Shown: positions 1 to 33,051 of the stretch, in pieces
How the letters are laid out: every line of letters starts with the position of its first letter
Numbering within the stretch: position 1 is the stretch's first letter
Assembly (NCBI GenBank): GCA_009925925.1
Contig: RFQA01000006.1
Coordinates: 1 to 42,871 of the forward strand
Direction of reading: 5' to 3'
Origin: Betaproteobacteria bacterium
GTDB lineage: Bacteria; Pseudomonadota; Gammaproteobacteria; Burkholderiales; Burkholderiaceae_C
DNA length: 42,871 nt
Notes under the pieces: generated by a model
What the model saw: the letters and a program-made list of their open reading frames with translations, nothing else
What the model was told of the DNA's origin: nothing
Databases searched by the model: none
Program-made: the position numbers and the translations under genes

Positions 1-2238
1 TTGGCGAAAGCCTTCGGGCTGAACGCTTTGCCTGCTGGCAAGCAAGCATTCGCCGTCATCTGGACCACCACTGCTTGGACCATCCCTGCCAACCAGGCAC
101 TTAACGCCCACCCTGAGCTGGAATACGCGCTGGTGGACACGCCCAAGGGCGTGCTGCTGCTGGGCGCCAGCTTGGTCGAGAAGTGCATGGAGCGTTTCGG
201 CCTGACCGGCACCGTACTGGCGACCGCCAAAGGCGAAGCCCTGCGCGGACAGGTGTTCCGCCACCCGCTGTACGACCTGCCCGCAGACGTGAACGTGGCT
301 GGCAACGCATACAGCTACAAGCGCCTCTCGCCGCTGTACCTGGCCGACTACGTGAGTGACGGCGACGGCACCGGCATCGTGCACTCCTCGCCCGCCTACG
401 GTGTCGATGACTTCAACAGCTGCATCGCCAATGGCCTGAAATACGACCAGATTCTCAACCCCGTATTGGGCAATGGTGTGTACGACACCGAGCTGCCCCT
501 GTTCGGCGGACAGCACATCTGGAAGGCTTGCGCGAACGTCATCGACACTTTGCGCGAACACGGCCGTCTGATGGCCACCGTGGGCATTACCCACAGCTAC
601 CCGCACTGCTGGCGCCACAAGACGCCGGTGATCTACCGCGCGGCCGCCCAGTGGTTCATCCGCATGGACGCCGGTGAGGGTGTATTCACCAGAGACAAAG
701 CGCCCAAGACCTTGCGCCAACTGGCGCTGGATGCCATTGAACAGACCAGCTTCTACCCCGAAAACGGTCGCAGCCGTTTGCGCGACATGATCGCCAACCG
801 CCCAGACTGGTGCATCTCGCGCCAGCGCAGCTGGGGTGTGCCGGTGCCCTTCTTCCTGCACAAAGACAGTGGCGAGCTACACCCCCGCACCATGGAAATC
901 CTGGACCAGGCGGCCGACATCGTGGAGCAAGGCGGCATCGAAGCCTGGAGCCGCGTGTCTGTTGAGGAAATCTTGGGCGCGGCCGACGCACCCAGCTACA
1001 CCAAGAGCACCGACATTTTGGAAGTCTGGTTCGACTCCGGCTCCACCTTCCAGCACGTGCTGCGCGGCAGCCACAAGGATGCCTACGCGGTGCCCCCCTT
1101 CCACGCAGAAGGCCCCGAGGCCGACCTGTACCTCGAAGGCCATGACCAGCACCGCGGCTGGTTCCACAGCTCGCTGTTGCTGGGCTGCGCGCTCTACGAC
1201 CGCGCGCCCTACCGCGGCCTGCTGACCCACGGCTTTGCCACCGACGGCCAGGGCCGAAAAATGAGCAAGTCGCTGGGCAACACCGTCGAGCCGCAAACCA
1301 TTACGAGCAAGATGGGGGCTGAGATCGTGCGCCTGTGGGTGGCCAGCACCGACTACTCCGGTGACCTGAATATCGACGACAAAATCCTGGCCCGCGTGGT
1401 GGACACCTACCGACGGGTGCGCAACACGCTCAAGTTTTTGCTGGCCAACGTCTCTGACTTTGACCCGGTCAAAGACGCGGTGCCCGTCGACCAATTGTTG
1501 GAGATCGACCGTTATGCGTTGGCCCGTGCCGCGCAGTTGCAAGCCGACATCCTGGCGCACTTCAAGGTCTACGAATTCCACCCCGTGGTGAGCAAGCTGC
1601 AGGTGTATTGCAGTGAAGATCTGGGCGCGTTCTACCTGGACGTACTCAAGGACCGCCTCTACACCACAGCAGCCAACAGCCTGGCCCGCCGTTCCGCGCA
1701 AAGCGCGCTGTGGCAGATCACCCAGGCCATGCTGCGCTGGATGGCGCCTTTCCTCAGCTTCACCGCTGAAGAAGCCTGGGCCGTATTGGGCGCCGAGGGC
1801 AAGACACCCGAGGCCACCAAGCTCTCTATCTTCCTGGATGGTTACTCCACCTTTGCCGCGCCGGACGAGGCCTTGCTGGCCAAGTGGGCCCGCATCCGCG
1901 CAGTACGCGAGGCGGTCAACAAAGACATCGAAACCCTGCGTGCCGCAGGCCAGGTGGGCGCCTCCCTGCAAGCCGAGGTGACGCTCACCGTGCCGGCAGA
2001 AGAGTTCGCCTTGCTGAGCAGCTTGGGTGAGGACTTGAAGTTTGTGTTCATTACCAGCGCTATCACTTTGGTAGCTGGTGGCGCACAATCCATCAGCGTT
2101 ACAGCATCCAACAATGTGAAATGCGAGCGCTGCTGGCACTACCGCGCCGACGTTGGGGCAGATGCCGCGCACCCCACCTTGTGCGGCCGTTGCACCAGCA
2201 ATTTGTATGGCTCAGGTGAAGCCCGGAAGTTCGCGTAA
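1..2238 (+). CDS. ileS: Isoleucine-tRNA ligase, C-terminal 745 residues (5' end outside window)
   Basis: Cytoplasmic class I aminoacyl-tRNA synthetase that charges tRNA-Ile; the frame is already open at base 1, so about 200 N-terminal residues with the HIGH motif lie upstream. Visible are the start of the CP1 editing domain ([12 protein letters not shown], near residue 22), the catalytic segment [10 protein letters not shown], the KMSKS loop (residues 420-424), the anticodon-binding helical region, and a C-terminal zinc finger CERCWHY followed by CGRC. The stop overlaps the lspA start by one base (TAATG), so the two are probably translationally coupled, the usual arrangement in proteobacteria. 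Just before the zinc finger, bases 2059-2104 match the dispersed repeat found elsewhere in this window and encode an [14 protein letters not shown] stretch. Identification is secure. Confidence 0.97.
2059..2104 (+). repeat. Dispersed repeat copy A, inside ileS
   Basis: Reads GCTATCACTTTGGTAGC, then GCGCACAATCC and CAGCGTTACAGC. This follows the shared plan of the window's repeats: a GCTA...TAGC arm pair, GCGCA, then an AGCGCT-like end. It is in frame in ileS, between the anticodon-binding domain and the C-terminal zinc finger. Confidence 0.65.
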
Positions 2239-2762
2239 TGGCCCGCAACAACAAAGGTTTCGGCAAGACCTTCAGCAAGGACTCCGGCAAAAGCAGCGGC
2301 ATGCTGCTGTGGCTGGGTTTGGCCTTTATCTTGCTGCTGGCAGATCAGTTCACCAAAACGCTGATCCTCGGCTATTACCACTTGGGTGACAGCACCTATG
2401 TCACCAGCTTCTTCAATGTGGTCCGGGTGCACAACACCGGCGCTGCGTTTTCGTTTCTGGCGGATGCGGGCGGCTGGCAACGCTGGTTCTTCACGGGACT
2501 GGGCTTTGTGGCAGCAGCGGTCATCGTCTGGCTGCTGCGCTCGCACGCAGGTCAGAAGCTGTTCAGCTTTGCGATGGCCTGCATTCTGGGCGGTGCCATC
2601 GGGAACGTTGTAGACCGCCTGATGCACGGCTATGTGGTGGACTTTCTGGACTTTCACTGGAATGGCATGCACTTTCCGGCCTTCAATGTGGCTGACTGTG
2701 CAATTTCAGTGGGGGCCATGTGCCTGATACTGGACGAACTGTTGCGAGTCAGAAAAACCTGA
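2238..2762 (+). CDS. lspA: Lipoprotein signal peptidase (signal peptidase II)
   Basis: Inner-membrane aspartyl protease that cleaves prolipoprotein signal peptides after lipidation of the +1 cysteine. The 174 residues contain four hydrophobic segments after a basic N-terminus of about 20 residues. The family motifs are present: ADQFTK (35-40), HNTGAAFSF (65-73), GNVVDR with catalytic Asp126, and FNVADC with catalytic Asp153. The ATG overlaps the ileS stop and a GGAAG ribosome-binding site lies 8 bases upstream inside ileS. The length is normal. A lipoprotein encoded in this window (UshA-like, 24827-26464) would be a substrate. Confidence 0.97.
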
Positions 2763-2925
2763 TTTGCGCCACAGCAGGAATAAACTTGCGGTCGCTGAAA
2801 AAGCCGCCCGCTTTGAGGCGGATCAAAGCCAAGAAACCTCGATGGATAAGGGATGACTTAAAATCGGGTCCTACTGGTGTGACCGGCTCTTCCGGTGTTG
2901 CGCACCTCTCGCACCCGAGTCCCCT

Positions 2926-3846
2926 ATGACCACCACAACTAGAAAAACCCTCATCTTGGCCGCCCTGTTGGCGTTGGCTCCTTGTACGGCCTCTTGGGCC
3001 CAAAGTGTGGTCATAGCCCAGAATGCCCAGCCAGCCCCGGAGGCAACACCAGCTGCAAACGCGGTGACCACCAAGTTCGACAAAGCCATCAACAATGATG
3101 AGAACTGGTACTTCTCCTGGGGCTACAGCCGCCAGCAGTACGCACCCTCAGACATCCGGGTGTCCCAACCTGAGCTGGGCAATGACTTCACCATTCGCAA
3201 AGCCAAAGGCAGCGACTTCCCTTCCAGCGTCGGCGACACCATCAGCTCGCTATTCAACCTTGACTTCACCAATCCGCAAGAAAACATCCGGATCGGCAAG
3301 TTCCTCAACCCCGAAAAAACATTTGCGGTTGAACTCAACATCGACCACAGCAAATACAACGTGGACTACGGCCAGACCGTAGCGGTCGATGGCACAGCTC
3401 CGAACGGGATCACGTCGATGGTGGTCACACCGCAGAACTTCAACTACGCACTGCACAACGGCCTGAACCACATCATGATTAACGCGGTCTGGCTGCATCG
3501 CCTGCGGGGCCCGGAGCAAAAGCCGGGTGACTTGCAGCTGATCAGCCGTGTGGGCGCCGGCATCTTGCTGCCCCATGCCGATAACGTGATCTTCGGCAAC
3601 GCCAATGAAGTGGGCCCCAAGAACGAAAACGTCTGCTGCTTCAAGAAGAACGATTGGTGGCAAATCAACGGCTGGACTGCAGGTGTAGAGGTCGGCCTGC
3701 GTTACCGCGTGTACAAATCCATGTACGTCGAACTGACCAACAAAATTGCCTACGGTGTGCTGCGTGGTGTGCCGGTCTACAAGGGCACAGCCGATCAGGA
3801 ACTCTGGATGAACGAGCAGGTGCTTTCCGCAGGCTTCTTGTTCTAA
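2926..3846 (+). CDS. Outer-membrane beta-barrel protein of unknown function
   Basis: 306 residues. The N-terminus is a classical signal peptide (basic TTTTRK, hydrophobic LILAALLALAP, probable cleavage after ASWA at residues 22-25). The mature chain alternates polar and aromatic residues (WYFSWGYS, NIRIGKF, AVELNIDHSKY, LISRVGAGILL, GVEVGLRYRVY) and ends in Phe (SAGFLF), the usual C-terminal signature for BAM-dependent insertion. I do not recognise a named family; an OmpW-like or lipid A-modifying barrel is possible but unproven. It sits 163 bases after lspA with no clear ribosome-binding site and is followed by a strong terminator, so it may be monocistronic. Confidence 0.75.
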   Translation: MTTTTRKTLILAALLALAPCTASWAQSVVIAQNAQPAPEATPAANAVTTKFDKAINNDENWYFSWGYSRQQYAPSDIRVSQPELGNDFTIRKAKGSDFPSSVGDTISSLFNLDFTNPQENIRIGKFLNPEKTFAVELNIDHSKYNVDYGQTVAVDGTAPNGITSMVVTPQNFNYALHNGLNHIMINAVWLHRLRGPEQKPGDLQLISRVGAGILLPHADNVIFGNANEVGPKNENVCCFKKNDWWQINGWTAGVEVGLRYRVYKSMYVELTNKIAYGVLRGVPVYKGTADQELWMNEQVLSAGFLF

Positions 3847-3863
3847 AGGGTCAACACCCCAAC

Positions 3864-3898
3864 AAAAAAGGGCACACCACACGGTGTGCCCTTTTTTT
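3864..3898. terminator. Bidirectional intrinsic terminator
   Basis: A perfect 9 bp stem GGGCACACC / GGTGTGCCC with an ACAC loop is flanked by six A on the left and seven T on the right. It serves both the barrel-protein gene on the plus strand and the convergent quinone oxidoreductase on the minus strand. Confidence 0.93.
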
Positions 3899-3910
3899 AT
3901 TCATCTGGCT

Positions 3911-4906
3911 TTACAGGGTCAGAATAGTGCAGCCCGTCGTCAGGCGGGCTTCCAGGTCTTTATGGGCCTGTTGCACATCCTCCAGGGCATAGCGCTGGGC
4001 GATGTGGATCTTGACTTTTCCACTCAGCACAACGTCAAACAGGTCGTCCGCCATGGCCTGTGTGCTTTCGCGGGTGGCAATGTGGGTGAACAGGGTTTGG
4101 CGTGTCACATAGATGGACCCTTTGGGCCCGAGGATGCCGGGCGAGAACGGTGCTACGGGGCCGGAGGCATTGCCGAAGCTGGCCATCAAGCCGAAGGGGG
4201 CCAGACAGTCCAGCGACTTGTCCCAGGTGTCTTTGCCCACCGAGTCGTACACCACCTTCACCCCTTTGCCGCCTGTGATCTCCTTGACACGGGCCGCAAA
4301 GTCCTCTGCTCTGTAATTGATAGCATGCTCCGCACCATTGGCGAGCGCCAGAGCACATTTTTCTTCCGAACCGGCAGTCGCAATCAGGCGCAAGCCCAGC
4401 GCCTTGGCCCACTGGCAGGCAATCAGCCCCACCCCACCTGCGGCCGCATGGAAGAGCACAAAGTCGCCGGCCTGCAAGCCGCCTTGAGGCAGCGTGCGCT
4501 TGAGCAGGTACTGAGCGGTCAGGCCCTTGAGCATCATGGCGGCACCGGTGTCGAAACTGATGCCGTCAGGCAGCTTGCACACGCACTTGGCAGGCATCAC
4601 CCGTACTTCGCAGTAGCTGCCCGGCGGCTGGCTGGCGTAGGCGGCGCGGTCGCCCACCTTGAGATGACTCACGCCCTCGCCCACTGCTTCAATCACGCCC
4701 GCTGCTTCCATACCCAACTGCACCGGCAGATTCATGGGGTACAGGCCGGAGCGCTGGTACACGTCGATGAAGTTCAGCCCCACCGCATGGTGGCGGATGC
4801 GCACCTCACCGGGGCCGGGTTCGCCCACGGTGACCTGCACCAACTGCAGCTGTTCGGGGCCGCCATGCTGGGCGATGTGAATGGCGCGGGAAGTCACTGA
4901 ACTCAT
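3911..4906 (-). CDS. qor: NADPH:quinone oxidoreductase (zinc-independent MDR superfamily)
   Basis: 331 residues. Reduces quinones or related enones with NADPH in the cytoplasm. The GroES-like half carries the family pattern GLNFIDVYQRSGLYP and GMEAAGVIEAVGEGV. The Rossmann half has AAAGGVGLIACQWAKALG for cofactor binding. No structural zinc cysteines are present, as expected for quinone oxidoreductases. The start ATG (complement of 4904-4906) was chosen because GGAGA lies 7 bases upstream and the family N-terminus begins there; a longer open frame exists but is unsupported. It diverges from the EamA transporter gene. A weak copy of the dispersed repeat (4308-4354) lies inside, within the AEHAINYRAED segment. 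Confidence 0.92.
   Translation of the reverse strand: MSSVTSRAIHIAQHGGPEQLQLVQVTVGEPGPGEVRIRHHAVGLNFIDVYQRSGLYPMNLPVQLGMEAAGVIEAVGEGVSHLKVGDRAAYASQPPGSYCEVRVMPAKCVCKLPDGISFDTGAAMMLKGLTAQYLLKRTLPQGGLQAGDFVLFHAAAGGVGLIACQWAKALGLRLIATAGSEEKCALALANGAEHAINYRAEDFAARVKEITGGKGVKVVYDSVGKDTWDKSLDCLAPFGLMASFGNASGPVAPFSPGILGPKGSIYVTRQTLFTHIATRESTQAMADDLFDVVLSGKVKIHIAQRYALEDVQQAHKDLEARLTTGCTILTL
4308..4354 (+). repeat. Possible degenerate dispersed repeat copy, inside qor
   Basis: Contains GCTCTGTAATTGATAGC, then CCGCACCATTGG and GAGCGCCAGAGC, which resembles the repeat plan with several mismatches. The encoded residues are also typical of quinone oxidoreductases and no length change is evident, so chance similarity is possible. 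Confidence 0.35.
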
Positions 4907-5015
4907 GGTTTTGTCTCCATCGATGGTGGTTGTTATGAACGCACAACATGGTGCCAGAAATCGGCAACAACCGCAGGCCGGCGACAGCTTTGCACTCCTT
5001 GCTACAGTGCAGGCC

Positions 5016-5918
5016 ATGACTCAACGCCTGACCCCGACCGCCGCCCTCCTGTTGGTGATTCCTCCCCTGATGTGGTCCGGCAATGCAGTGGTAGGCCGTA
5101 TGGTGGCGCCGCTGATTTCGCCTATGACGCTCAACCTGCTGCGCTGGGCCATTGCTTTCCTGATTTTGCTGCCCCTGGCCAGCCGCGTGCTGCGCGCCAA
5201 CAGCGGTTTGTGGCCGCAATGGAAACGGTTTGCCCTGCTCAGCCTGTTCAGCATCGGTGGATACAACGCACTCTTGTATCTGGCGCTGAACACCTCCACC
5301 GCCATCAACGTCACGCTGGTGGGTGCCAGCACACCGGTGTGGATGCTGCTCATCGGCCGCTTGCTGTTCAAGGCACCGGTATCGCGCAAACAACTGTTGG
5401 GCGCGGTGCTGTCCATAGGAGGCGTGCTGCTCGTGCTGGGCCGTGGGGACTGGCAGGTCATCACCCATCTGCGCCTGGTGCCTGGTGATTTGTATGTGCT
5501 GCTGGCGTCCATCGGCTGGGCCGCCTACAGCTGGTTGTTGGCCCACCCCACCCCCGAGTCCGAAGAAATCCGCTCCGACTGGTCCACGTTCTTGATGGGG
5601 CAGATTGTGTTCGGGCTGGGCTGGTCTCTGGCGTTTACCAGTGGTGAATGGCTGCTCACTCCCGCACACATCGACTGGAGCCTCGGGCTTGCCGCCGCAC
5701 TGGCCTTTATTGCATTGGGGCCCGCGGTCATTGCCTATGGCACTTGGGGGGCCGGCGTCTCTCGTGCGGGCCCTGCGGTAGCGGGGTTCTTCATCAACCT
5801 CACGCCCTTGTTCACGGCAGTGCTGTCATCCATATTTTTGGGTGAGGCACCCAAGCTGTACCACGCGCTGGCCTTTGTGCTCATCGTCTCCGGCATTGTT
5901 CTCTCTTCCCGCAAGTAA
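5016..5918 (+). CDS. EamA-family (DMT superfamily) metabolite exporter
   Basis: 300 residues with about ten hydrophobic segments arranged as two EamA repeats. The first begins near PPLMWSGNAVVGRMVAP and the second near LASIGWAAYSWLLAHP; the last helices carry GPAVAGFFINLTPLFTAVLS, the usual EamA C-terminal signature. Such inner-membrane proteins export amino acids, nucleosides or other small metabolites; the substrate cannot be told from sequence. The start at 5016 gives the expected family N-terminus (TPTAALLLVIPP); earlier in-frame ATGs exist but would overlap the divergent qor start. The GH13 gene follows after 6 bases, so the two are probably cotranscribed. Confidence 0.88.
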   Translation: MTQRLTPTAALLLVIPPLMWSGNAVVGRMVAPLISPMTLNLLRWAIAFLILLPLASRVLRANSGLWPQWKRFALLSLFSIGGYNALLYLALNTSTAINVTLVGASTPVWMLLIGRLLFKAPVSRKQLLGAVLSIGGVLLVLGRGDWQVITHLRLVPGDLYVLLASIGWAAYSWLLAHPTPESEEIRSDWSTFLMGQIVFGLGWSLAFTSGEWLLTPAHIDWSLGLAAALAFIALGPAVIAYGTWGAGVSRAGPAVAGFFINLTPLFTAVLSSIFLGEAPKLYHALAFVLIVSGIVLSSRK

Positions 5919-5924
5919 GCATCC

Positions 5925-8837: not shown

Positions 8838-8860
8838 AAATAACCTCCAGCACAAAAATA

Positions 8861-8881
8861 GCGAAATTCTTAGAATGTCGC
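8861..8881. promoter_or_regulatory. Near-palindrome, candidate operator between MFS and AraC genes
   Basis: A 21 bp inverted repeat with outer arms GCGA/TCGC and inner arms ATTCT/AGAAT around a single central base, with one mismatched pair. It lies in the 143 bp divergent intergenic region, close to the MFS gene. Its symmetry suits a dimeric regulator; AraC proteins usually prefer direct repeats, so another regulator is possible. Confidence 0.5.
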
Positions 8882-8980
8882 CTGGGGCCCGCGCAAACAA
8901 CGACTGGTGAAAACAGGTTTCTCATAGGTATAGCGTAATCAGCGGGCTGCTACTCTCCGCCGGAATTCGATACCACTCCC

Positions 8981-12459: not shown

Positions 12460-12497
12460 GGTTCCAACTCCCTGTGTTCGGGGCCTGGCGAGGCCGC

Positions 12498-12511: not shown

Positions 12512-12540
12512 GCAAGTCGGATGCCACAAGTTACAAACGA

Positions 12541-13335
12541 CTAAAAAGTGCCGCCGAATGCCCCGCCGTCCACCAACACGTTTTGGCCCGTCATATAGCC
12601 GGCTTGCTGGCTGCACAAGAAGGCGCAGACCTGGCCGAACTCGGCCGGCGTGCCGTAGCGGCCCACGGGAATCTGGGCCTGCTGCAGGCGGCGGATGTCT
12701 TCCACACTCTGGCCGGTTTTGGCCGAAGTGGCCTTCACGGTGGCGGCAATGCGGTCGGTGTCGAACTTGCCGGGCAGCAGGTTGTTGATGGTCACGCCCT
12801 TGGCGGCCAGGCTGCTGCGGGCCACGCCGGCCACAAAGCCGGTCAGTCCGCTACGCGCGCCATTGGACAGGCCCAGAATGTCGATGGGCGACTTCACCGC
12901 GCTGGAGGTGATGTTCACAATGCGCCCGAAACCCCGCGCAGCCATGCCGTCCACCGTAGCCTTGATGAGCTCGATGGGGGTGAGCATGTTGGCGTCTACC
13001 GCCTTGATCCAGGCTTCGCGGTCCCAGTCACGGAAATCGCCGGGCGGCGGGCCGCCCGCGTTGGTGACCACAATGTCAAAGTCCGCGCGCATGGCAAATA
13101 CCGCCTCACGGCCGGCCACCGTGGTGATGTCCTGGGCACAAAAAAGCACCTCCGCGCCCGTCTTGTCTGCGTAAGCAGCTCTTAAATTCATAGCAGATTG
13201 TTCCAGGGCCTGCGCGCCCCGTGCCACGATCAGCAGGTTCACACCCTCGGCGGCCAGCGCTTGCGCACAGCCCAGGCCCAGCCCTTTGCTGGCGCCGCAC
13301 ACCAATGCCCATTTGCCTTTGATTCCTAAATCCAT
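12541..13335 (-). CDS. SDR-family oxidoreductase lacking the YxxxK active-site motif
   Basis: 264 residues. The cofactor-binding pattern GASKGLGLG (14-22) and NAG (92-94) are intact, and Ser144/145 sit in NITSS. Where Tyr-xxx-Lys is expected the chain reads GLSNGARSGL, and there is no Tyr anywhere from residue 140 to 190. A subset of FabG-like SDRs with an LSN..R pattern shares this feature as I recall it, so the protein may still fold and bind NAD(P) but use other chemistry or act non-catalytically. The C-terminus YMTGQNVLVDGGAFGG is typical. A dispersed repeat copy (13146-13194) encodes residues around SAMNLRAAYADKTGAEV. It runs in the same direction as the EamA and DUF808 genes upstream. 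Confidence 0.9.
   Translation of the reverse strand: MDLGIKGKWALVCGASKGLGLGCAQALAAEGVNLLIVARGAQALEQSAMNLRAAYADKTGAEVLFCAQDITTVAGREAVFAMRADFDIVVTNAGGPPPGDFRDWDREAWIKAVDANMLTPIELIKATVDGMAARGFGRIVNITSSAVKSPIDILGLSNGARSGLTGFVAGVARSSLAAKGVTINNLLPGKFDTDRIAATVKATSAKTGQSVEDIRRLQQAQIPVGRYGTPAEFGQVCAFLCSQQAGYMTGQNVLVDGGAFGGTF
13146..13194 (-). repeat. Dispersed repeat copy B, inside the SDR gene
   Basis: On the minus strand reads GCTATGAATTTAAGAGCTG, CTTACGCAGA, then ACGGGCGC. It shares a sub-type with copy C (GCTATG.ATTTA.GAGCTGCTT, CGCAGA, ACGGGCGC). It encodes part of the loop after the second beta strand of the SDR fold. Confidence 0.7.
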
Positions 13336-13369
13336 GTCGAGTCCTTCTCTATTGTTGGTACGCGCAGCG

Positions 13370-14305
13370 TCAGCGCCGGCTGCTCACCACATACACACCC
13401 AGTAGCACCAAAACGGTGCCCGCCACCACCCACAAGTTCATGGGCTCGTCCAGCAGCAACACGCCCATGAGGATGGTGGACATGGGGCCCACCATGCCCA
13501 CCTGCGCAGCCAGGCCCGAGCCGATGCGCTCGATCGCCATCATCACCATCAGCACCGGAACCACCGTGCAGGCTGTGGCGTTAAGCAGCGAGAGCCACAG
13601 CACCTCTGGCGCCACGGCAAACGCAGTGTCCAGCGGCCGCAGCAGCACAAACTGCGCAATGCACAGCACGCAGGCCACACTGGTGGCCAGCCCCACCAAC
13701 CGCAGCGAGCCCAGGCGCTGCACCAGCTCGCCGCTATAGCTCAAATACAGCGCATAGCTGATGGCGCTGCCCAGCACCAGGACCGCGCCCAGCGCCACAT
13801 GACCACCGGCCAAGGTCACTTCATGGCCGAACACCAGCAGCACGCCGCCATAGCTGATGGCCATGCCCACGCCCTGCGGCAGCGTCACCTTTTTGCCATA
13901 CAAGGCCATACCCAGCAACACGACGAGCGTGGGGTTGAGGTACAAAATCAGCCGCTCCAGCGAAGCCGAGATGTAAGCCAGCCCCGCAAAGTCCAGAAAG
14001 CTGGCGAGGTAGTAACCGGTAATGCCCAGGCCCAGAATGCCCAGCTTGTCTCGGGTGGTCAGAGCCACCACGTCCTGGCCCCGCCGGCGTGCACGCGGCC
14101 CGGTCCACCACACGATGGCCAGGAAGAACGGCAATGCCATCAACATGCGCAGCATGATGAGGCTGACTGCATCCACCCCGGGGTAGCGGTAGGCCAGCTT
14201 GACGATGATGGCTTTGCCACTGAAGGCAATGGCACCGGCAATGGCCAGCGCCAGACCGGTTGCTATGGATTTAGGAGCTGCTTGCGCAGATTGCACGGGC
14301 GCCAA
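13370..14305 (-). CDS. EamA-family (DMT superfamily) transporter
   Basis: 311 residues, about ten hydrophobic segments in two EamA repeats (FSGKAIIVKLAYRYPGVDAV in the first; SAISYALYLSYSGELVQRLG in the second), ending GTVLVLLGVYVVSSRR. Inner-membrane exporter of unknown substrate. The frame is closed by a stop just upstream, so the start must be TTG at 14305 (AAGGGA about 9 bases before it) or a GTG at 14296. The first 15 or so residues (APVQSAQAAPKSIAT) are encoded by a dispersed repeat copy, which therefore supplies the start region. It follows the DUF808 gene by 3 bases, so coupling is likely. Confidence 0.87.
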   Translation of the reverse strand: MAPVQSAQAAPKSIATGLALAIAGAIAFSGKAIIVKLAYRYPGVDAVSLIMLRMLMALPFFLAIVWWTGPRARRRGQDVVALTTRDKLGILGLGITGYYLASFLDFAGLAYISASLERLILYLNPTLVVLLGMALYGKKVTLPQGVGMAISYGGVLLVFGHEVTLAGGHVALGAVLVLGSAISYALYLSYSGELVQRLGSLRLVGLATSVACVLCIAQFVLLRPLDTAFAVAPEVLWLSLLNATACTVVPVLMVMMAIERIGSGLAAQVGMVGPMSTILMGVLLLDEPMNLWVVAGTVLVLLGVYVVSSRR

Positions 14306-14310
14306 TGGCT
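14262..14310 (+). repeat. Dispersed repeat copy C, at the start of the EamA gene
   Basis: Reads GCTATGGATTTAGGAGCTG, CTTGCGCAGATTGC, then ACGGGCGCCAATGGC. It covers the initiation region and the hydrophilic N-terminus of the minus-strand EamA gene and abuts the DUF808 stop codon. Confidence 0.75.
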
Positions 14311-15211
14311 AATTTCCCTTCGAACCCTGGCGCAGGCGCTGCACCAGCGTTACACCTGCCAGCACCAGGGCGCCGGCCACGATGCCGACCAAACCGTCCC
14401 ACACAAAGCCCAGTGGCAGGCCTTCCAGCAGGTGGTGCAAAAACGGCAAGCCGTGCACCAGAATGCCGCCGCCCACCAGAAACATGGCCGCGGTACCGGC
14501 CACCGACAGCACCCTCATCAGCACCGGTGCTGCGCGCAGCAAGCCGCGCCCCAGCGCCTGGGTGAAGCCGCCTTCGGGCGTGGCGGAGGGCCGACGGGTG
14601 AGGTAGAGGCCCAGGTCGTCAATCTTCACAATGCCCGCCACCAGGCCGTACACGCCCACCGTCATGATGAAGGCCACACCGGCCAGCACCATAAGCTGCG
14701 TCGTCCAGGCGCTGGTTTGCACCGTGCCCAAGGTGATGGCGATGATTTCGGCCGAGAGAATGAAGTCGGTGCGGATGGCCCCCTTGATCTTGTCTTTCTC
14801 CAGCGCCACCAGATCCACTGCGGGGTTTTGCAGCGCCTGCAGAAGCTCGGCTTCATGGGCCTGATCGTCTTCCGCGCGATGCAGAAACTTGTGGGCCAGC
14901 TTCTCGAAACCTTCAAAACACAAAAAAGCGCCGCCCACCATGAGCAGCGGCGTCACCAGCCAGGGCGCCACGATACTGATGGCCAAGGCTGCGGGCACCA
15001 GGATCACTTTGTTCAACAGCGAACCCTTGCACACCGCCCATACCACCGGAATCTCTCGCTCGGCGGATACACCGGTGACTTGCTGGGCATTGAGCGCGAG
15101 GTCATCACCCAGCACACCGGCTGTTTTCTTGGCGGCGACTTTGCTGAGCACCGCGACATCGTCCAACACCGTGGCAATGTCATCAAAAAGAGCGAGAAGG
15201 CTGCTGGCCAT
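14309..15211 (-). CDS. DUF808 family inner-membrane protein (YedI-like)
   Basis: 300 residues. The N-terminus [41 protein letters not shown] is split by the family hallmarks LLALFDDIA and [12 protein letters not shown], which match E. coli YedI and relatives. About six to eight hydrophobic segments follow, with the soluble stretch [19 protein letters not shown] also family-typical. Function is unknown. The start at 15211 was chosen because AGGA lies 5 bases upstream and it matches the family N-terminus; a longer frame is open. First gene of the probable DUF808-EamA-SDR operon. Confidence 0.88.
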
Positions 15212-16491: not shown

Positions 16492-16779
16492 TTGCCTGCC
16501 AAAGGCCCATCGCGAATCGCGGGTACCTTGGTCCTTGCAGCAGCCCTGTTGTGTCTGGGCGTCTCACTCGCTTGTTGGTTTATCTATTTCACGGTGTATT
16601 GGCCATACCGGAATCTCTTCGACGAAACGGGCCGCTATTTCGATGCGCAAACCCTGGTCGTTTACCAAGAACAGAGCGGCTTGTTGATCTGGCCTGCATT
16701 GGCACTCTCCATGTTGACCGTCATGCTCGGAGTCGCGTGGAAAACCATCCGCAGCACCAATGGACCACGCAATTTATAG
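16492..16779 (+). CDS. Small two-helix membrane protein, hypothetical
   Basis: 95 residues with two clear hydrophobic segments (GTLVLAAALLCLGVSLACWF and LLIWPALALSMLTVMLGVAW) separated by about 30 polar residues. It starts with TTG, preceded by a purine-rich AGGACAGGGG. No family is recognised. The stop codon is two bases before a repeat copy (16781-16835), which may form the end of the transcript. Confidence 0.55.
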   Translation: MPAKGPSRIAGTLVLAAALLCLGVSLACWFIYFTVYWPYRNLFDETGRYFDAQTLVVYQEQSGLLIWPALALSMLTVMLGVAWKTIRSTNGPRNL

Positions 16780-16780
16780 T

Positions 16781-16835
16781 CAAAACCGCCGCTAGCGCTC
16801 ACTGGATATGCGCAAGCAGCTACCAAATCAATAGC
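16781..16835 (-). repeat. Dispersed repeat copy D, intergenic, near full-length
   Basis: On the minus strand reads GCTATTGATTTGGTAGCTG, CTTGCGCATATCC, then AGTGAGCGCTAGCGGCGG. This is the best-preserved copy. It lies between the small membrane protein gene and the broken BASS transporter. Confidence 0.85.
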
Positions 16836-16843
16836 AAATTGCG

Positions 16844-20018: not shown

Positions 20019-20031
20019 GGAAGTGGGACCC

Positions 20032-20559: not shown

Positions 20560-20672
20560 GTCTAACGCAAACTCAAGCAAAATTGAAAAAAAGAGCGTGA
20601 TTGTCGCAGCATTCGACAAAGGCCTCTTACGCTGCCATTTTTCAGGGCTTTGACAGCCCGACCACCCACCGG

Positions 20673-20990: not shown

Positions 20991-21095
20991 ATCGGTACAA
21001 ACACGGGGGTCGCAGGCATGCGGCACCTAGGGTCATCACCATTGCCCCGTCCGTATGCCAAAAGAACAATGCCCTGAAACCACACAGGGACCACC

Positions 21096-22790: not shown

Positions 22791-22813
22791 GGCAGCTGGG
22801 GTAAGCTCACCCC

Positions 22814-24819: not shown

Positions 24820-24826
24820 GCTCACC

Positions 24827-26464: not shown

Positions 26465-28671
26465 TGCCTTCGTTCCCCCGTAACCGCAGGCCACAATTCA
26501 ACCTGCGGACGGTGCCCGCCCCCTGGGCGGAGGGTCGTGCAGGCCAGCACATGATCATCGACGGCTATGCGCCGTCTCAAATGATTGAGGACCTGCGCAA
26601 ATACCAGGCCGAACTGGAAATCCAGAACAAGGCGCTTCGCTACTCGCAGCAGGAAGCTGAAGGCGCCTCGGAGCGATTTGCCACCCTGTTTTCCAATGTG
26701 CCGTTGGCCCTGATGGTGGTAGACGAGGGTGGCCTGGTGCTGGCGAGCAATGCCATGGCACTGCGCCTGTTCCAGCCGCTGGAAAACGACCCGCCCCTGA
26801 ACTTCCTGCTGCCTTTTGTAGGTCCCGAACACACAGATGAAGTGGCAGTGGCCTTCTCCAGCGCGCGCCAGGAAGGTACCAGCGAAGTCAATGAAGTGCA
26901 GTTCCTATCCGGCACACAAGGCACGTTCACCGGCGATCTGCACATTGCCCGCATCGAGAACCCCAGCGACGATCTGGCGCATTTCATTTGCGCCGTGATT
27001 GACCAAGGGCCGCTGCTCACCCAGCGCCATGCCCTTCTGGAGAGTGCGGCCGTTCTGCGCCAGCGCAACGAGGACCTGCTGCTGAGCGAAAACCGCATGG
27101 CGGCCATCATTAATTCGTCGCTGGATGCCATTTTGTGTATCGACGACAAACAACACATTACCGTCTTCAACCCGGCAGCGACCGCCTTGTTTGAATGCCC
27201 GGCGGAGCAGGCTTTTGGCGCCCGCTTGGGGCAGTTTTTGCCGGATGTGGAAAAAGCCCTGAGTGAGGGCAATGTGCCCGCACAGGCCATGCTGGGCGAA
27301 TTCACCGCGACCACTTTGGGTGGTAAACAAATTTATGTGGAAATCAGTGTGTCGCTGGAGCGCCGCTTGCGTACCCGCACGCCCTTTCGCTCAGACGACC
27401 CCAACGCCATTGCCATGCGCGGACAGCCGGGCATGCAGGGCTCCATCACCACCATTTTTGCGCGCGACCTCACCTCCAAAAAGCTGGCTGAAGCCCAGCG
27501 TATTGCGCTGGAAACCCAGCTGCGTGAATCACAAAAAATGCAGGCCATGGGCACCATGGCCGGCGGCATTGCGCACGACTTCAACAACATCCTGAGCGCC
27601 ATTCTGGGCAACGTGGATTTGGCCAAGCAGGACACGCCTGCAGGGTCATCCGCCCTCGTGAGCCTGGTAGAGATCGAGAAAGCCGGCAGGCGCGCCCGCG
27701 ATTTGGTGCGCCAGATTTTGACCTTCAGCCGCAATGAGCCGCCCAAGCGGGTACCCATCCAGCTGGCCGAAGTCATTCACGAGACCCAGCGCCTGGTGCG
27801 CGTGGCCATTCCGCCAGGCGTGGATTTCAAATTGGTAGTGGCCGAGGGTTGCCCCTTGGTGCTGGCCGATGCGACCCAGGTCGAGCAGGCCCTTCTGAAC
27901 CTGTGCACCAACGCCATCCTTGCGCTGGGGCACAACAAAGGCTCCGTGACCATTGAACTGGGTACTACGACCCTCTCACTGCCATTCAATGACCGCATCG
28001 GCGTGCCCCCGGGCCGCTATGTGACTTTGCGCGTGCGCGATACGGGCAGCGGCATGAGCCAGCAAACCATTGAGCGCATCTTCGAGCCCTTTTTCACCAC
28101 CCGCCAGGTGGGCCAGGGCACCGGGTTGGGCTTGGCCGTGGTGCACGGCATCATGCAAACCCACCAGGGGGGTATCGATGTGCAGAGCGCCCCCAACGAG
28201 GGCAGCGTATTCACCCTGTACTTCCCCGCCACAGGTGCCGCACCGGTAGAGGCCTCGGAACCCGAGCCGGTCACCGAAGTAGAAGGTCGCGGCCGGCACG
28301 TCATGTATGTGGACGATGACCAGGCACTGGTTTTTCTGGTGAACCGGGTACTCACCCGCAAGGGTTTCAAGGTCACGGTGTTTACCGACCCTCTGGAGGC
28401 CGAAGCCGCCCTGCGCAGCCAACCCGAGATTTACGACTTGCTGGTCACCGACTACAACATGCCGGGCTACAGTGGCCTGGACTTGCTGCGGGATGCCAAA
28501 GCCATCCGTGCCGACCTGCCCGTGGCGGTGGCCTCCGGCTATGTCACTCCGGAAATTGAGCAACGTGCCCTCCAAGAAGGCGCCAGCGCCCTCATCTACA
28601 AACCCAATGATGTGAACGAGCTGTGCGAAACCGTGCAACGATTGATCAGCCACCCCGATGCACAGCCCTGA
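26464..28671 (+). CDS. Hybrid sensor histidine kinase with C-terminal receiver, cytoplasmic
   Basis: 735 residues with no membrane segment. Order: short coiled region ([19 protein letters not shown]), PAS-like domain (about 70-180, [16 protein letters not shown]), second PAS (about 212-345, [16 protein letters not shown]), HisKA with His371 ([17 protein letters not shown]), HATPase ([31 protein letters not shown]), and a receiver with Asp663 ([17 protein letters not shown]). There is no output domain and no separate response regulator nearby. The start overlaps the ushA stop by one base, so the two are translationally coupled; the kinase may sense internal state linked to nucleotide or redox supply. 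The 3' end overlaps the RluA-like gene by 14 bases. Confidence 0.93.
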
Positions 28672-29332
28672 CGACCACTACAACCCGCCTGCCCAGACCG
28701 AGCTGCCCGTGGTGTACGTAGACGATGCAATGCTGGTGCTCAACAAACCCGCCGGCCTGCTGACGGTACCCGGCCGGGGGGAGGCCAAGCAGGACTGCCT
28801 GAGCAAACGTGCGCAAGACGTGTACCCGGAAGCCCTGATCGTGCACCGGCTGGACCGGGACACTTCGGGCCTGGTGGTCATGGCACGCGGTGTCAATGCC
28901 CAACGGGCCATCAACCTGTCGTTCGAAAAACGGCTGGTGGACAAGCGCTACGAGGCCGTAGTGATCGGCCTGCTGCCGGTGAGTGACGATTGGCAGGAGA
29001 TTGACCTGCCCTTGCTGGTGGACTGGCCCAACCGCCCCAAACGCACCGTCAACCATGCCGAAGGCCAGCAAGCCCTGACCCGGTGGCGCTGCACGGCCGT
29101 GGACGCTGTCCGCGGCTGCTCGCGCGTTGAACTGGAGCCGGTGACCGGCCGCACCCACCAGCTGCGCGTACACATGCAGGCCCTGGGCCACCCCATGCTG
29201 GGCGACACGTTGTACGCCACCCCGGAGGCACTGGCCCTGTCAGACCGCTTGCAACTGCATGCCCGCACCTTGTCCATCCCCCACCCGGTCAGCGCTCAGG
29301 TGGTGGAATTCACCGCGCCCGTGCCGTTTTAA
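28658..29332 (+). CDS. RluA-family pseudouridine synthase
   Basis: 224 residues without an S4 domain. The catalytic motif HRLDRDTSGLVVMAR holds the essential Asp; VNKPAG is replaced by the equivalent LNKPAGLLTVPGRG, and GRTHQLRVHMQALGHPMLGD completes the fold. Length and lack of S4 are closest to RluA, which modifies 23S rRNA U746 and tRNA U32, but RluC/D-like substrates cannot be excluded. It overlaps the kinase gene by 14 bases. Confidence 0.92.
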   Translation: MHSPDDHYNPPAQTELPVVYVDDAMLVLNKPAGLLTVPGRGEAKQDCLSKRAQDVYPEALIVHRLDRDTSGLVVMARGVNAQRAINLSFEKRLVDKRYEAVVIGLLPVSDDWQEIDLPLLVDWPNRPKRTVNHAEGQQALTRWRCTAVDAVRGCSRVELEPVTGRTHQLRVHMQALGHPMLGDTLYATPEALALSDRLQLHARTLSIPHPVSAQVVEFTAPVPF

Positions 29333-29377
29333 GCCCCCTGCGGCAGTGCAGGTGGGGGCAGCGCCTAAAATGAAGCG

Positions 29378-30232
29378 GTGACCAACATACTCAACGCTGA
29401 CCTCCATTGCCACTCTGTGGTGTCCGATGGCACGCTCACCCCGGAAGCCCTGGCCGAACGCGCCAAGTCCAACGGCGTGGAACTCTGGGCCCTGACCGAC
29501 CACGACGAGATCGGCGGTCTGCAACGCGCCCGTGACGCCGCGCACGCCCAAGGCATGCGCTACCTCACCGGGGTGGAGATTTCGGTCACGTTTTTGCATC
29601 AGACCGTGCACATCGTCGGCTTGGGCTTTGATGCTGAGAATGACGATTTGCGCCATGGCCTGCAACGCACCCGCGGCGGACGCAAAGAACGGGCCATGGA
29701 AATGTCCGACGGGCTGGCCAAAGTCGGCATCAAAGACGCCTTTGAGGGTGCCCTGAAGTTTGTCGGCAACCCCGAACTGATTTCGCGCACCCACTTCGCC
29801 CGCTTTCTGGTTGAGACCGGGGCCTGCAAGGACACCAATGAAGTCTTCCGCAAGTACCTGACCGAAGGCAAACCGGGCTATGTGCCCCACCGATGGGCGA
29901 CCCTGAAGGACGCCGTGCAATGGATTACGCAAGCTGGTGGCATGGCCATCATCGCGCACCCGGCGCGCTACAAGTTCAGTCCGAACGAGGAATTCGCCTT
30001 GTTCACCGAATTCAAGGGTCACGGCGGCCAGGGCGTGGAAGTCGTGACCGGGAGCCATTCCGCAGCCGAATACGTGACCTACGCGGGCACCGCCAAGGAA
30101 TTCGGCTTGGCGGCCTCGCGCGGCAGCGATTTTCACAGCCCACTGGAGAGCCACACCGAACTGGGCACCCTGCCCTATTTGCCGGGTGGCCTGACCCCTG
30201 TGTGGGAATTGCTGAGCGCACGCATCCAGTAA
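29378..30232 (+). CDS. rnm: RNase AM (PHP-domain 5'-3' exoribonuclease, YciV/TrpH)
   Basis: 284 residues. The PHP metal ligands are in ADLHCHSVVSDG, LTDHDEIGG, GVEIS, AHPARY and SRGSDFHSP. E. coli YciV matures the 5' ends of 5S and 23S rRNA and also hydrolyses 3',5'-nucleotide bisphosphates (established). The start is GTG at 29378. As in E. coli, the next gene is yciO, which supports orthology. A GC-rich hairpin (GCCCCC/GGGGGC, 29333-29359) lies in the 45 bp before it, without a T-tract. Confidence 0.92.
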   Translation: MTNILNADLHCHSVVSDGTLTPEALAERAKSNGVELWALTDHDEIGGLQRARDAAHAQGMRYLTGVEISVTFLHQTVHIVGLGFDAENDDLRHGLQRTRGGRKERAMEMSDGLAKVGIKDAFEGALKFVGNPELISRTHFARFLVETGACKDTNEVFRKYLTEGKPGYVPHRWATLKDAVQWITQAGGMAIIAHPARYKFSPNEEFALFTEFKGHGGQGVEVVTGSHSAAEYVTYAGTAKEFGLAASRGSDFHSPLESHTELGTLPYLPGGLTPVWELLSARIQ

Positions 30233-30274
30233 CCCGACAACCTTTGAGGACCGGCGCTTTGGCGCCACCCCGCC

Positions 30275-30898
30275 ATGGCGCAGTATTTCGAAGTTCACCC
30301 CGACAATCCCCAGCCCCGCTTGCTCAAGCAGGCCATCGCCCTGCTGGAAAAAGGCGGCATTCTGGCCGTGCCTACCGACTCCAGCTATGCACTGGTCTGC
30401 CACCTGGACGACAAGGCTGCGGCCGACAAGTTGCGCAGCATCCGTGGCGTGGACGACAAGCACCACCTGACGCTGCTGTGCCGCGACCTGAGTGAACTGG
30501 CCAACTACGCGCGGGTGGACAACAAGCAATACCGCCTGCTCAAGGCAGCCACACCCGGCGCCTACACCTTCATCCTGGAAGCCAGCAAAGAAGTGCCGCG
30601 CCGGGTGAGCCACCCCTCCCGCAAGACCATAGGTCTGAGGGTGCCAGAGCACCAAGTGCTCCAGGAGCTGTTGGCGCACTACGGATCTGCGCTACTTGCT
30701 ACTACTTTGATAGCAAAGGGCGAGTCCGAGCCACTCAACGACGCACAGGACATACGCGAACGCTACGAGCACCAGATCGCTGCCGTCATCGATGCAGGTG
30801 CCTGTGCGCTGGAACCCACCACCGTCATTGACCTGACCGGCGATGAGCCGGAACTGATCCGCCAAGGTGGCGGAGACCCCGCATTGCTCGGGCTCTGA
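30275..30898 (+). CDS. yciO: YciO-type L-threonylcarbamoyladenylate synthase-like protein
   Basis: 207 residues of the Sua5/YciO/YrdC family. The N-terminal half has GGILAVPTDSSYALVCHL and the conserved KLRSIRGVDDKHHLTLL; the middle has ATPGAYTFILEASKEVPRR. YciO proteins bind RNA and ATP and can make threonylcarbamoyl-AMP weakly; their cellular role is debated. Residues in GSALLATTLIAKG are encoded by a dispersed repeat copy (30667-30714), apparently with no length change relative to other YciO proteins. The gene follows rnm by 42 bp and precedes the peptidase M50 gene. Confidence 0.9.
   Translation: MAQYFEVHPDNPQPRLLKQAIALLEKGGILAVPTDSSYALVCHLDDKAAADKLRSIRGVDDKHHLTLLCRDLSELANYARVDNKQYRLLKAATPGAYTFILEASKEVPRRVSHPSRKTIGLRVPEHQVLQELLAHYGSALLATTLIAKGESEPLNDAQDIRERYEHQIAAVIDAGACALEPTTVIDLTGDEPELIRQGGGDPALLGL
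30667..30714 (-). repeat. Dispersed repeat copy E, inside yciO
   Basis: On the minus strand reads GCTATCAAAGTAGTAGC, then TAGCGCAGATCC and GTGCGCCAAC, aligned end to end with copy D. It is read antisense to the repeat's own orientation by yciO and keeps the frame. Confidence 0.72.
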
Positions 30899-30957
30899 AG
30901 CCGGCGGGGTATCCTGATTTCACCGCCCTCCCCTGACCAACTGAGAAAACCTCCCCT

Positions 30958-31626
30958 GTGGACATTGCCAACCTGATCCAAACTGTCGCCATCTACGCAT
31001 TGCCGGTGCTATTTGCCATCACCGTGCACGAAGCGGCTCACGGCTATGCGGCCCTCTACTTCGGCGACAAGACCGCTGCCATGCTGGGGCGCATCACCCT
31101 CAACCCCGCCAAACACATAGACCCGGTAGGCACCATCCTGATGCCGCTGCTGCTGTACTTTGCGACCTCCGGCGCCTTTTTGTTCGGCTATGCCAAACCG
31201 GTACCCGTGCGGTTTGGAAATTTGCGCAACCCCAAGCGCGACATGATCTGGGTGGCCCTGGCTGGCCCGGTTGCCAACTTGGCCATGGCGCTGGCATGGG
31301 GCATTGGCATGTACCTGCTCAGCGGAGCCGGTGTGACCGAGCCCTTCTTCCTGAAAATGTGCGAAGGCGGCGTGCTGGTCAACGTAGTGATGTTCGCGTT
31401 CAACCTCTTCCCCCTGCCCCCGCTGGACGGCGGGCGCATCATGGTCGGGCTGCTGCCGCTCAAGCAGGCCATGGCCTTCTCGCGCATTGAGCCTTGGGGC
31501 TTCTTCATTGTGATGGCGCTGGTGATTGCCGGTGTGCTCAGCGCAGTGTGGATGCAGCCCGTGATGTCGCTGACCTTCGGCTTGCTGGACTTGCTGCTCA
31601 CCCCTTTTTCCATGTTGGCGCGCTGA
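30958..31626 (+). CDS. Site-2 protease family protein (peptidase M50)
   Basis: 222 residues. Inner-membrane zinc metalloprotease: HEAAHG (His24, Glu25, His28) in the first helix and LPPLDGGRI with the third ligand Asp in a later helix. About six hydrophobic segments, no PDZ domain, so it belongs to the small FtsH-unrelated group often placed next to trpS. The substrate is unknown. The start is GTG at 30958, preceded weakly by GAGAAAA. Neighbours yciO and trpS run in the same direction with short gaps. Confidence 0.92.
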   Translation: MDIANLIQTVAIYALPVLFAITVHEAAHGYAALYFGDKTAAMLGRITLNPAKHIDPVGTILMPLLLYFATSGAFLFGYAKPVPVRFGNLRNPKRDMIWVALAGPVANLAMALAWGIGMYLLSGAGVTEPFFLKMCEGGVLVNVVMFAFNLFPLPPLDGGRIMVGLLPLKQAMAFSRIEPWGFFIVMALVIAGVLSAVWMQPVMSLTFGLLDLLLTPFSMLAR

Positions 31627-31662
31627 AGCGCCCACCCTGATTCGACTGATAGATTTGCACCC

Positions 31663-32997
31663 ATGAGTACTGTTCGCTTCCTCACCGGCATCACCACCTC
31701 CGGCACCCCGCATCTGGGCAACTACGTGGGCTCCATCCGCCCCGCCGTGCGCGCAAGCAAGGCGCCGGGCGTGGAGAGTTTTTACTTTCTGGCGGACTAC
31801 CACGCGCTCATCAAAATCGACGAGCCTGAACGCATCCAGCGCTCCACGCTGGAGATTGCCGCGAGCTGGCTGGCCGCGGGCTTGGACCCTTCGCATGTGA
31901 CCTTTTACCGCCAGTCGGATGTGCCTGAGATTCCGGAACTCTGCTGGTTCCTGACCTGCGTGACCGGCAAGGGCGTGCTCAACCGCGCCCATGCCTACAA
32001 GGCCTCGGTGGACAAAAACACCGCTGCGGGCGTGGACCCGGATGCCGATGTAACCGCCGGCCTTTTCATGTACCCGGTGCTCATGGGCGCGGACATTTTG
32101 ATGTTCAACGCGCACAAGGTGCCCGTGGGGCGGGACCAGATTCAGCACATCGAAATGGCGCGCGACATGGCAGCGAGCTTCAACCACCGCTACGGCGAGC
32201 ACTTTGTAGCGCCTCAGGCCGAGATTGAAGAATCAGTCGCCACCCTGCCCGGCCTGGACGGCCGCAAGATGAGCAAGAGCTACGACAACACCATTCCGCT
32301 GTTCAGCAGCCGCGAACAACTCAAGAAGCTGATTGCCGGCATCAAGACTGATTCGCGCGCACCTGGCGAGCCCAAGGACACCGAGGGCTCGGCCCTGTTC
32401 CAGATCTACCAAGCGTTTGCCTCGGAAGAAGAGACCGCGAAGCTGCGCCAGGCGTATGCCGACGGCATTGCCTGGGGCGACGCCAAAACCATGCTCTTTG
32501 AGCGCATTGACCAGGAAATTGCACCCATGCGCTCGGCGTACGAAGATTACATGGCGCACCCTGAAAAGGTGGAGGCTCTGTTGCTGGCCGGTGCGGCCAA
32601 AGCGCGCGCCATTGCCACGCCTTTCATGACCCAGCTACGCAGCGCCGTGGGCCTGCGCCGATTGAGTGCCACGGCACAGACCGGCGCAGCCAAAGCAGAC
32701 AAGGTCGCGCTGGCAACTTTTAAGCAATACCGCGAAAAAGACGGCCAGTTCTACTTCAAGCTCGCCGCGGCCGATGGGACGGTGTTGCTGCAAAGCAAGG
32801 CCTTCGCATCCGGCAAAGACGCAGGTCAGACCATTGCGCAATTGCAGCGTGAAGGCGCTGCCGGGCTCCCCGGACTGCAATCCTTGTTGGAGCCCGTGGA
32901 TGCTACAGGCGTGGCAGCCGCAAGCGCTGCCTTGGATGCACTGGCAGCCGCTGCCGCTGAAGCCGCCAAAGAAAAGGCAGCCAAGGCACAGGGCTGA
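31663..32997 (+). CDS. trpS: Tryptophan-tRNA ligase with C-terminal YegP-like extension
   Basis: 444 residues, about 100 longer than E. coli TrpRS. The class Ic catalytic domain has TPHLGN (15-20) and KMSKS (202-206), and residues up to about 335 match the usual enzyme. The added C-terminus has FKQYREKDGQFYFKLAAADG followed by LLQSKAFASGKDAG, resembling one copy of the DUF1508/YegP fold, then a Gly/Ala-rich lysine tail ending KEKAAKAQG. I recall longer TrpRS proteins in Burkholderiales, so the extension may be lineage-wide; it could bind RNA. A repeat copy follows the stop directly. Confidence 0.95.
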   Translation: MSTVRFLTGITTSGTPHLGNYVGSIRPAVRASKAPGVESFYFLADYHALIKIDEPERIQRSTLEIAASWLAAGLDPSHVTFYRQSDVPEIPELCWFLTCVTGKGVLNRAHAYKASVDKNTAAGVDPDADVTAGLFMYPVLMGADILMFNAHKVPVGRDQIQHIEMARDMAASFNHRYGEHFVAPQAEIEESVATLPGLDGRKMSKSYDNTIPLFSSREQLKKLIAGIKTDSRAPGEPKDTEGSALFQIYQAFASEEETAKLRQAYADGIAWGDAKTMLFERIDQEIAPMRSAYEDYMAHPEKVEALLLAGAAKARAIATPFMTQLRSAVGLRRLSATAQTGAAKADKVALATFKQYREKDGQFYFKLAAADGTVLLQSKAFASGKDAGQTIAQLQREGAAGLPGLQSLLEPVDATGVAAASAALDALAAAAAEAAKEKAAKAQG

Positions 32998-33000
32998 CTT

Positions 33001-33051
33001 GCTATTTATTTGATAGCTACCCGCGCAGTAGCGACGAGCGCTAGCAGTCGA
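33001..33051 (+). repeat. Dispersed repeat copy F, intergenic after trpS
   Basis: Reads GCTATTTATTTGATAGC, then CCGCGCAGTAGCGA and GAGCGCTAGCAG. Begins three bases after the trpS stop codon and ends 29 bases before the next gene. Confidence 0.82.

Follow-up and report, generated by a model that had tools for sequence, protein, structure and literature searches.

A dispersed 69-bp motif of Comamonadaceae genomes that appears to be built in place, and RAYT as its possible reader

We describe a dispersed repeat in a 42,871-nucleotide stretch of DNA from a Betaproteobacteria bacterium (GenBank assembly GCA_009925925.1, contig RFQA01000006.1, positions 1 to 42,871; hereafter the window), which is contig C411 of the source genome (3.86 Mb, 465 contigs). 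The repeat is a 69-bp motif that lies both within and between genes, and every conserved gene examined was length-neutral at it, so that the arrival by insertion assumed in an earlier reading of the window made from its letters (the sequence-only reading) is not supported. With a probability of about one half, we interpret the repeat as a recognition motif, probably read by RAYT, whose copies drive or selection builds and maintains where they stand. Among the papers listed in searches of literature that lay mostly outside subscription journals, none described this repeat.

An alignment of 83 copies indicated a unit of 69 bp, essentially ungapped, which extends from column -4 to column +64 around the G of GCTAT with sharp ends and with flanks at background level; its GC content was 49%. 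The repeat is dispersed, as the sequence-only reading had stated, and longer than the approximately 50 bp given there. A first profile, built from 38 seeds that included copies A, B, C, D, and F of Table 1 and excluded copy G, was run over 460 kb of DNA, including loci chosen for bearing copies. It gave 86 matches at E<=1e-3, far above the reversed-sequence control (no match up to E=1, 6 matches when the limit was raised to E=10), and all seven copies named earlier were present in what is a real, genome-wide repeat. E-values vary with the amount of DNA per search. Copy E is the least certain, because it reached only 0.03 in the 38-seed search, and 7e-5 (window alone) or 6e-4 (larger set) with an 83-copy profile lacking it; copy G reached 2.7e-8 with the 83-copy profile. 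The 27-base core pattern GCTATNNNTTTNNTAGCTGCTNGCGCA occurred, with up to three mismatches, 150 times forward and 151 times in reverse in the source genome, and the reversed pattern was absent there. GCTA(8-30)TAGC alone was found 12 times in the window, compared with 3.8 expected.

Table 1 Copies of the 69-bp motif in the window.
Copy	Positions	Strand	Location	E-value	Remark
A	2057..2104	+	in ileS (1-2238 +), gene's strand	3.7e-10	69-column register 2055-2123
G	4305..4372	+	in quinone oxidoreductase gene qor (3911-4897 -), antisense	7e-4	non-seed
B	13137..13198	-	in SDR gene (12541-13335 -), gene's strand	3e-10	
C	14258..14326	+	over start of EamA-type gene (13370-14308 -) and preceding gap	3.5e-16	
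D	16771..16839	-	intergenic	6e-17	
E	30667..30718	-	in yciO-like gene (30275-30898 +), antisense	0.03	weak
F	32997..33065	+	intergenic, directly 3' of gene 31663-32997	3.7e-14	

The genes of the window that carry copies were compared with their homologues in the same genus. At ileS, where sequences from 16 of 24 relatives were used, 17 proteins, with and without the motif, aligned without a gap at the motif, and three of them had four extra residues further downstream. The alignments of qor (16 proteins), SDR (11), and yciO (5) were likewise gap-free there; at copy C, the N-terminus of the EamA-type protein varies in length, so the alignment gives no verdict on insertion. When the codons of ileS, qor, and SDR were scored with the profile, motif-bearing genomes gave +10 to +59 bits and the others, which include G172 (20 matches genome-wide) and G151 (two), gave -35 to -74 bits, where random positions had a median of -87 bits and a 99.9% quantile of -35 bits. 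The exception was the motif-rich genome G164, which scored -34.6 bits at qor. The sequence-only reading had named shared bases due to protein conservation as grounds for its refutation, and this applies by half: the protein is indeed conserved, but agreement of the bases with the motif is confined to motif-bearing genomes, with qor of G164 as the exception.

Genes outside the window gave the same picture. Copies in LpxB (42 bits), IcmF (47 bits), RfbD (40 bits), and NadB (28 bits) aligned gaplessly at the motif with PDB entries 5w8s, 4xc6, 1kbz, and 5kxj, respectively, and ManC (32 bits) showed three gap residues in and just after the motif against 2x5s. In a Pfam scan of ten proteins, seven had a domain across the copy; their net differences ranged from -2 to +9 residues, and none was near 23. 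Comparisons with homologues lacking the motif gave a net -11 to +7 residues in a cross-genome set of 25; sharing of copies in the whole of that analysis, 48 of 73, is inflated because the named loci were chosen for their motif match. A further set of 189 comparisons at 34 sites gave a net difference of zero in 150 cases and a range of -8 to +18, counting only alignments that span the copy, from which an alignment-breaking insertion would escape. Since a gap of about 23 residues was absent in nine conserved genes, the coding copies there are not insertions; those in the genes tested appear, from these alignments, to have been built in place. The RfbD family, in our reading, already resembles the residues that the motif encodes.

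The maintenance of the copies was examined between the genomes G156 and G150 (82.6% identity). Of 47 alignable G156 copies, 38 had a counterpart at the orthologous G150 site, and for 29 of the 38 the net length was unchanged; the other nine sites comprised eight that were length-neutral and one with a 47-bp indel. Unaligned stretches hold 14 of 61 G156 copies and 9 of 48 G150 copies, and distances between anchors are uninformative there. For the non-genic copies (intergenic and edge copies pooled, E<=1e-5, each genome in turn as the reference, pairs with more than six gaps dropped), consensus bases in informative columns were identical in 937 of 1000 cases (94%) and non-consensus bases in 128 of 184. 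Low-information columns were identical in 269 of 357 consensus and 304 of 456 other bases (573 of 813 together, 70%), a faster turnover than that of the remaining intergenic sites (77.7% identical); four-fold sites were at 30068 of 49716 (60.5%). A decaying repeat would not keep its consensus in this way. Length-neutral loss in a sister species alone would fit either the decay of an old insertion or gain in place; the conserved genes do discriminate.

Gene conversion between copies is possible but, given the four-fold value, is not needed to explain the turnover. Conversion-like bursts of difference were seen in two of ten pairs of copies between the source genome and G156 (11 versus 3.7 and 12 versus 5.7 expected); copy F differs from its G156 counterpart at 11 of 69 positions, compared with 3.7 expected from the flanks, and copy D at 1 of 69.

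The position of the copies relative to genes, which were called with a home-made gene finder, was determined. The 87 copies of the source genome were distributed as 31 inside genes, 10 at a gene edge, and 46 between genes, compared with 83%, 7%, and 10% for random placement; the corresponding numbers were 23, 13, and 25 for 61 copies of G156, and 18, 11, and 19 for 48 copies of G150. Copies between genes are thus in 4-5 fold excess, and about 36-38% lie in genes, in agreement with the earlier statement that the repeat often falls in coding sequence. Pooling the in-gene copies of the three genomes, which share sites, gave 72. Copies on the gene's strand numbered 34 in a single phase, those on the opposite strand likewise 34 in a single phase, and four fell elsewhere; 68 were accordingly in the two stop-free phases. 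The frame is kept in either orientation, as the sequence-only reading had noted, although the insertion into genes that it implied was seen in none of the genes tested.

Copy number and distribution were surveyed. At E<=1e-3, G156 had 61 copies in 420 contiguous kb and G150 had 48 in 440 kb, which extrapolates to about 410-570 copies per genome; pattern counts were 354 for G156, 242 for G150, and 0 for the control. Under strict filters and with at most 32 matches scored per genome, 59 of 150 genomes sampled across the family had a match, 38 of them at least 26 (hereafter the motif-rich family genomes). Within the genus, 22 of 41 genomes had a match, 17 of these at least 120, and 19 had none; stretches of same-genus DNA gave 0 matches in 115.7 kb from motif-poor genomes and 30 in 191.4 kb from motif-bearing genomes. 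Among the matches listed (80 of 117 stretches), the exact core occurred in Rhodoferax, Polaromonas, Acidovorax, Curvibacter, Giesbergeria, Simplicispira, Variovorax, and other Comamonadaceae, in unassigned metagenome-assembled genomes (MAGs), and in two Rubrivivax MAG contigs; one Colwellia contig, also among the matches listed, matched only 23 profile columns. We take the genera from Rhodoferax to Variovorax to belong to Comamonadaceae, and record titles bear out the earlier placement of the repeat in this family. The spacing within the motif was identical across genera (133 copies), and its middle differed by genus: the central pattern occurred 131 times in the source genome and 0 to 8 times in each of 149 others.

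The link to RAYT comes from the end of its gene. PF01797, which also covers IS200-type transposases, matched 112 of the 150 genomes sampled across the family and 39 of the 41 in the genus, usually once, with an open frame some 240 residues long. The RAYT of the source genome, on a contig (G000:C7) other than the window, retains HFH and YVRYFN, which we take to be the catalytic motifs. A RAYT match was present in 37 of the 38 motif-rich family genomes (35 by PF01797 and two by protein search), and the remaining genome is 74% complete. RAYT ends were read in 20 of these 38, hand-picked from 19 genera, and in 20 motif-poor genomes with 0-2 matches. The motif scored above zero at the RAYT stop codon in 11 of the 20 motif-rich genomes, on the opposite strand and with its start 6 to 23 bases short of the open reading frame's end, and three more showed a weaker match at the same position (14 of 20). 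It was found at the RAYT end in none of 19 motif-poor genomes (one locus held no RAYT and one only a poor match), and on that strand at 19 of 367 comparison gene ends in G156. In 18 of the 20 motif-rich loci, five of them motif-free, a GTCCC-like box lay 41-59 bp past the stop codon, and for 8 of the 19 motif-poor loci this distance was 43-53 bp; hence the motif may be length-neutral at the RAYT end too.

Some further features of these loci were observed. Many RAYT stop codons are followed, with little variation in distance, by the GTCCC box and by a TCTGACCCC box, and GGGGTCAGATTCCAATT-like boxes lie upstream in some loci. The motif-rich genome G015 had twenty Y1_Tnp matches, several with identical scores, compared with one in most genomes, which we read as an IS200-like burst beside RAYT.

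Based on these results, the reader of the motif would be a chromosomal protein, most likely the single-copy RAYT, a relative of Y1-type HUH transposases; its putative recognition of the motif is suggested by the motif at the end of its own gene. Copies, at least the genic ones, would arise and persist by site-by-site change of motif-like sequence, in which drive or selection favours bases towards the motif and removes bases away from it, with no gain in length. The force is presumed to be sequence-biased drive and not ordinary selection acting on the host. The scarcity of copies on the second replicon of G150, described below, also speaks for this reading, as does the presence or absence of the motif at the level of whole genomes. 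Several observations speak against this interpretation. RAYT presence does not track the motif, as PF01797 occurs in genus genomes whether motif-rich or not; motif-rich G196 has only a 33-residue RAYT fragment; 6 of the 20 motif-rich genomes lack the motif at the RAYT end; the spacing of copies in G150 was not significantly even (coefficient of variation (CV) 0.89, fraction at least as even 0.27); and, given the one 47-bp indel, some non-genic copies may be insertions, as is possible for intergenic copies in general. Neither RAYT presence nor the presence of ComEC, discussed below, discriminates alone between genomes with and without the motif, both being found in motif-poor genomes as well.

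The motif evolves like an uptake sequence, although about six times longer, yet accompanies RAYT like a repetitive extragenic palindromic (REP) sequence. A more specific proposal, which we consider tentative and less likely than not, is that a domesticated transposase, RAYT, has become the reader of a 69-bp genome-wide signal that converts existing, partly similar sequence, genes included, into further copies with no gain in length. If true, this would be a third mode of spreading for repeats, between transposition and uptake-driven molecular drive; passages of PMC8266576 describe the spread of REP-type repeats and the function of RAYT as unresolved. Copies over LpxB, IleS, and NadB without an added residue make the choice between insertion and in-place evolution testable by sequence, and the presence and absence of the motif within one genus provide natural controls. 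If our interpretation is right, some two hundred sites within the genes of each genome, by extrapolation, would have had their coding sequence reshaped by a DNA-level signal.

One alternative is a non-autonomous element resembling REP sequences and REPINs or a miniature inverted-repeat transposable element (MITE), which RAYT moves by insertion and which genes tolerate because its length is a multiple of three (69 = 3 x 23) and leaves two reading frames open. The REP/REPIN system with its RAYT ("REPtron", TnpA-REP) is similar in its hundreds of short, imperfectly palindromic copies, its intergenic excess, and a copy beside a single-copy RAYT; the sharp ends, the motif at the RAYT stop codon, and the 47-bp indel at a non-shared site would also suit insertion. 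We nevertheless consider it unlikely, because no insertion of about 23 residues was seen in the nine conserved genes or the seven Pfam domains, the 25 cross-genome comparisons gave small net differences, and the columns of the motif are unequally kept at orthologous sites. According to passages of PMC3116915 and PMC3733652, REPs are extragenic, clustered or paired, and are insertions when inside open reading frames. In the present case, more than one third of the copies lie in genes without added length, so that placement is not restricted to extragenic DNA; and inverted pairs or clusters of units are not the pattern in the stretches of the three genomes, where close pairs were rarer than expected. 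As for the GTAG-type tag conserved at one end of REPs, the motif has RTAG in its interior, at columns 12-15. Adjacent copies less than 800 bp apart numbered 0 versus 6.6 expected in G156, 0 versus 4.0 in G150, and 2 versus 6.3 in stretches of the source genome, three counts that are not independent; closer pairs occur elsewhere, such as two G156 copies 358 bp apart.

Other described repeats also differ. Rickettsia palindromic elements (RPE) and other intragenic REPs are similar as small repeats in open reading frames with permitted frames, but RPE are described in parts of PMC3733652 as insertions encoding extra residues, and here no residues are added in the genes tested; a MITE or RPE adds its own length at the target, which was not seen in those conserved genes. 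The Beta-proteobacterial repeat element (BRE) is likewise betaproteobacterial and is reported to occur in Comamonadaceae, sometimes wholly within coding sequence. As described in passages of PMC3110155, BRE is about 90 bp, 69% GC in Bordetella, tandem, and present in up to 29 copies; the present motif, 69 bp, 49% GC, dispersed, and in hundreds of copies, is set apart by this description alone.

Rather improbable, in our estimate, is a DNA uptake signal, spread by preferential uptake in natural transformation and by recombination drive and read by a surface receptor instead of RAYT. Uptake sequences (USS/DUS, DUES) evolve where they stand through point mutations, whether the DNA is coding or non-coding, in both orientations, and in related dialects, as stated in parts of PMC1939737 and PMC3630211, and the present motif does so with a genus-specific middle. 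The balanced strands (150/151), the consensus query without a match in 50,697 phage records, and the scarcity of copies on the 305-kb second replicon of G150 agree with such a signal; that replicon had three copies at E<=1e-3, with two at 25 bits or more compared with 29.8 expected from its chromosome. The same query matched 3 of 72,556 plasmid records. However, the motif is 69 bp long, palindromic in parts, and found at the RAYT end; it has 69 informative columns, compared with a core of about 9-12 bp in uptake sequences. The signals of H. influenzae and Neisseria are 9-10 bp and 12 bp, respectively. The ComEC family (PF03772) was present in 35 of 41 genus genomes, motif-free ones included, and was without a match in motif-rich G191, which is 99% complete.

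Separately, the ComEC domain match was in two pieces in motif-poor G151, G168, and G170, both pieces sharing a single open frame in two of the three, which may reflect a domain insertion or a divergent form. In the plasmid search, the 32-kb Rhodoferax antarcticus plasmid NZ_CP019241.1 had three consensus matches, and the 305-kb OS-4 plasmid a single one.

There is a slim chance that the motif serves as the binding site of a nucleoid, chromosome-organising, or topoisomerase protein and is selected for host benefit. Copies in G156 are spaced more evenly than random (CV 0.66 versus 0.98; fraction at least as even 0.001), close pairs are few, and 27 of 89 non-genic copies of the source genome and G156 lie between convergent genes, compared with 13.6 of 100 kb of intergenic DNA. 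Against this stand the absence of the motif from whole genomes of the same genus and the G150 spacing, which does not repeat the evenness. Periodicity of the A/T tracts was not significant either: their helical phasing was rejected, as 290 of 2000 permutations were equally good. A signal acting in RNA, for instance a terminator or stabilising hairpin, to which the imperfect palindromes and the convergent-gene excess might point, is very improbable: the central helix was 82.3% paired over 61 copies without covariation above shuffles, the consensus structure was nearly nil, single-strand folds of 12 sequences had z from -2.1 to +1.8, sense and antisense copies in genes were equal (34 and 34), and Rfam had no match in the window.

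The similarity of copies B and C had been taken earlier to indicate several lineages of the repeat, a view to which linkage between columns gives no support. Long-range mutual information was at or slightly above that of 12 shuffles (0.0494 versus 0.0487 +- 0.0005 in the source genome; 0.0757 versus 0.0731 +- 0.0011 in G156), and strong sub-family lineages were rejected. The variance of pairwise differences was 1.76 and 1.55 times the shuffled value, respectively; part of this excess reflects heterogeneity between strong and weak copies (mismatch variance 23.0 versus 11.7 and 16.0 versus 12.3), and weak sub-family structure is possible.

T tracts and A tracts were interchangeable at columns 7-10 and 50-53, independently, as if any A/T tract suffices. 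With TTT/AAA swapped at the two tracts, C stood at column 5 in 9 of 20 flipped copies and 8 of 62 others. An ongoing inversion of the loop was considered and rejected, as no clean flip was seen among the orthologous pairs displayed and the two tracts were independent (Fisher p 0.18).

Finally, colinearity of the window with G156 and G150 stops near 34.3 kb, and the next 10 kb of either genome beyond the colinear part had no alignment of more than 300 bases to the window. The segment 34300-42871 may thus mark a rearrangement, acquired DNA, or a misjoined contig.

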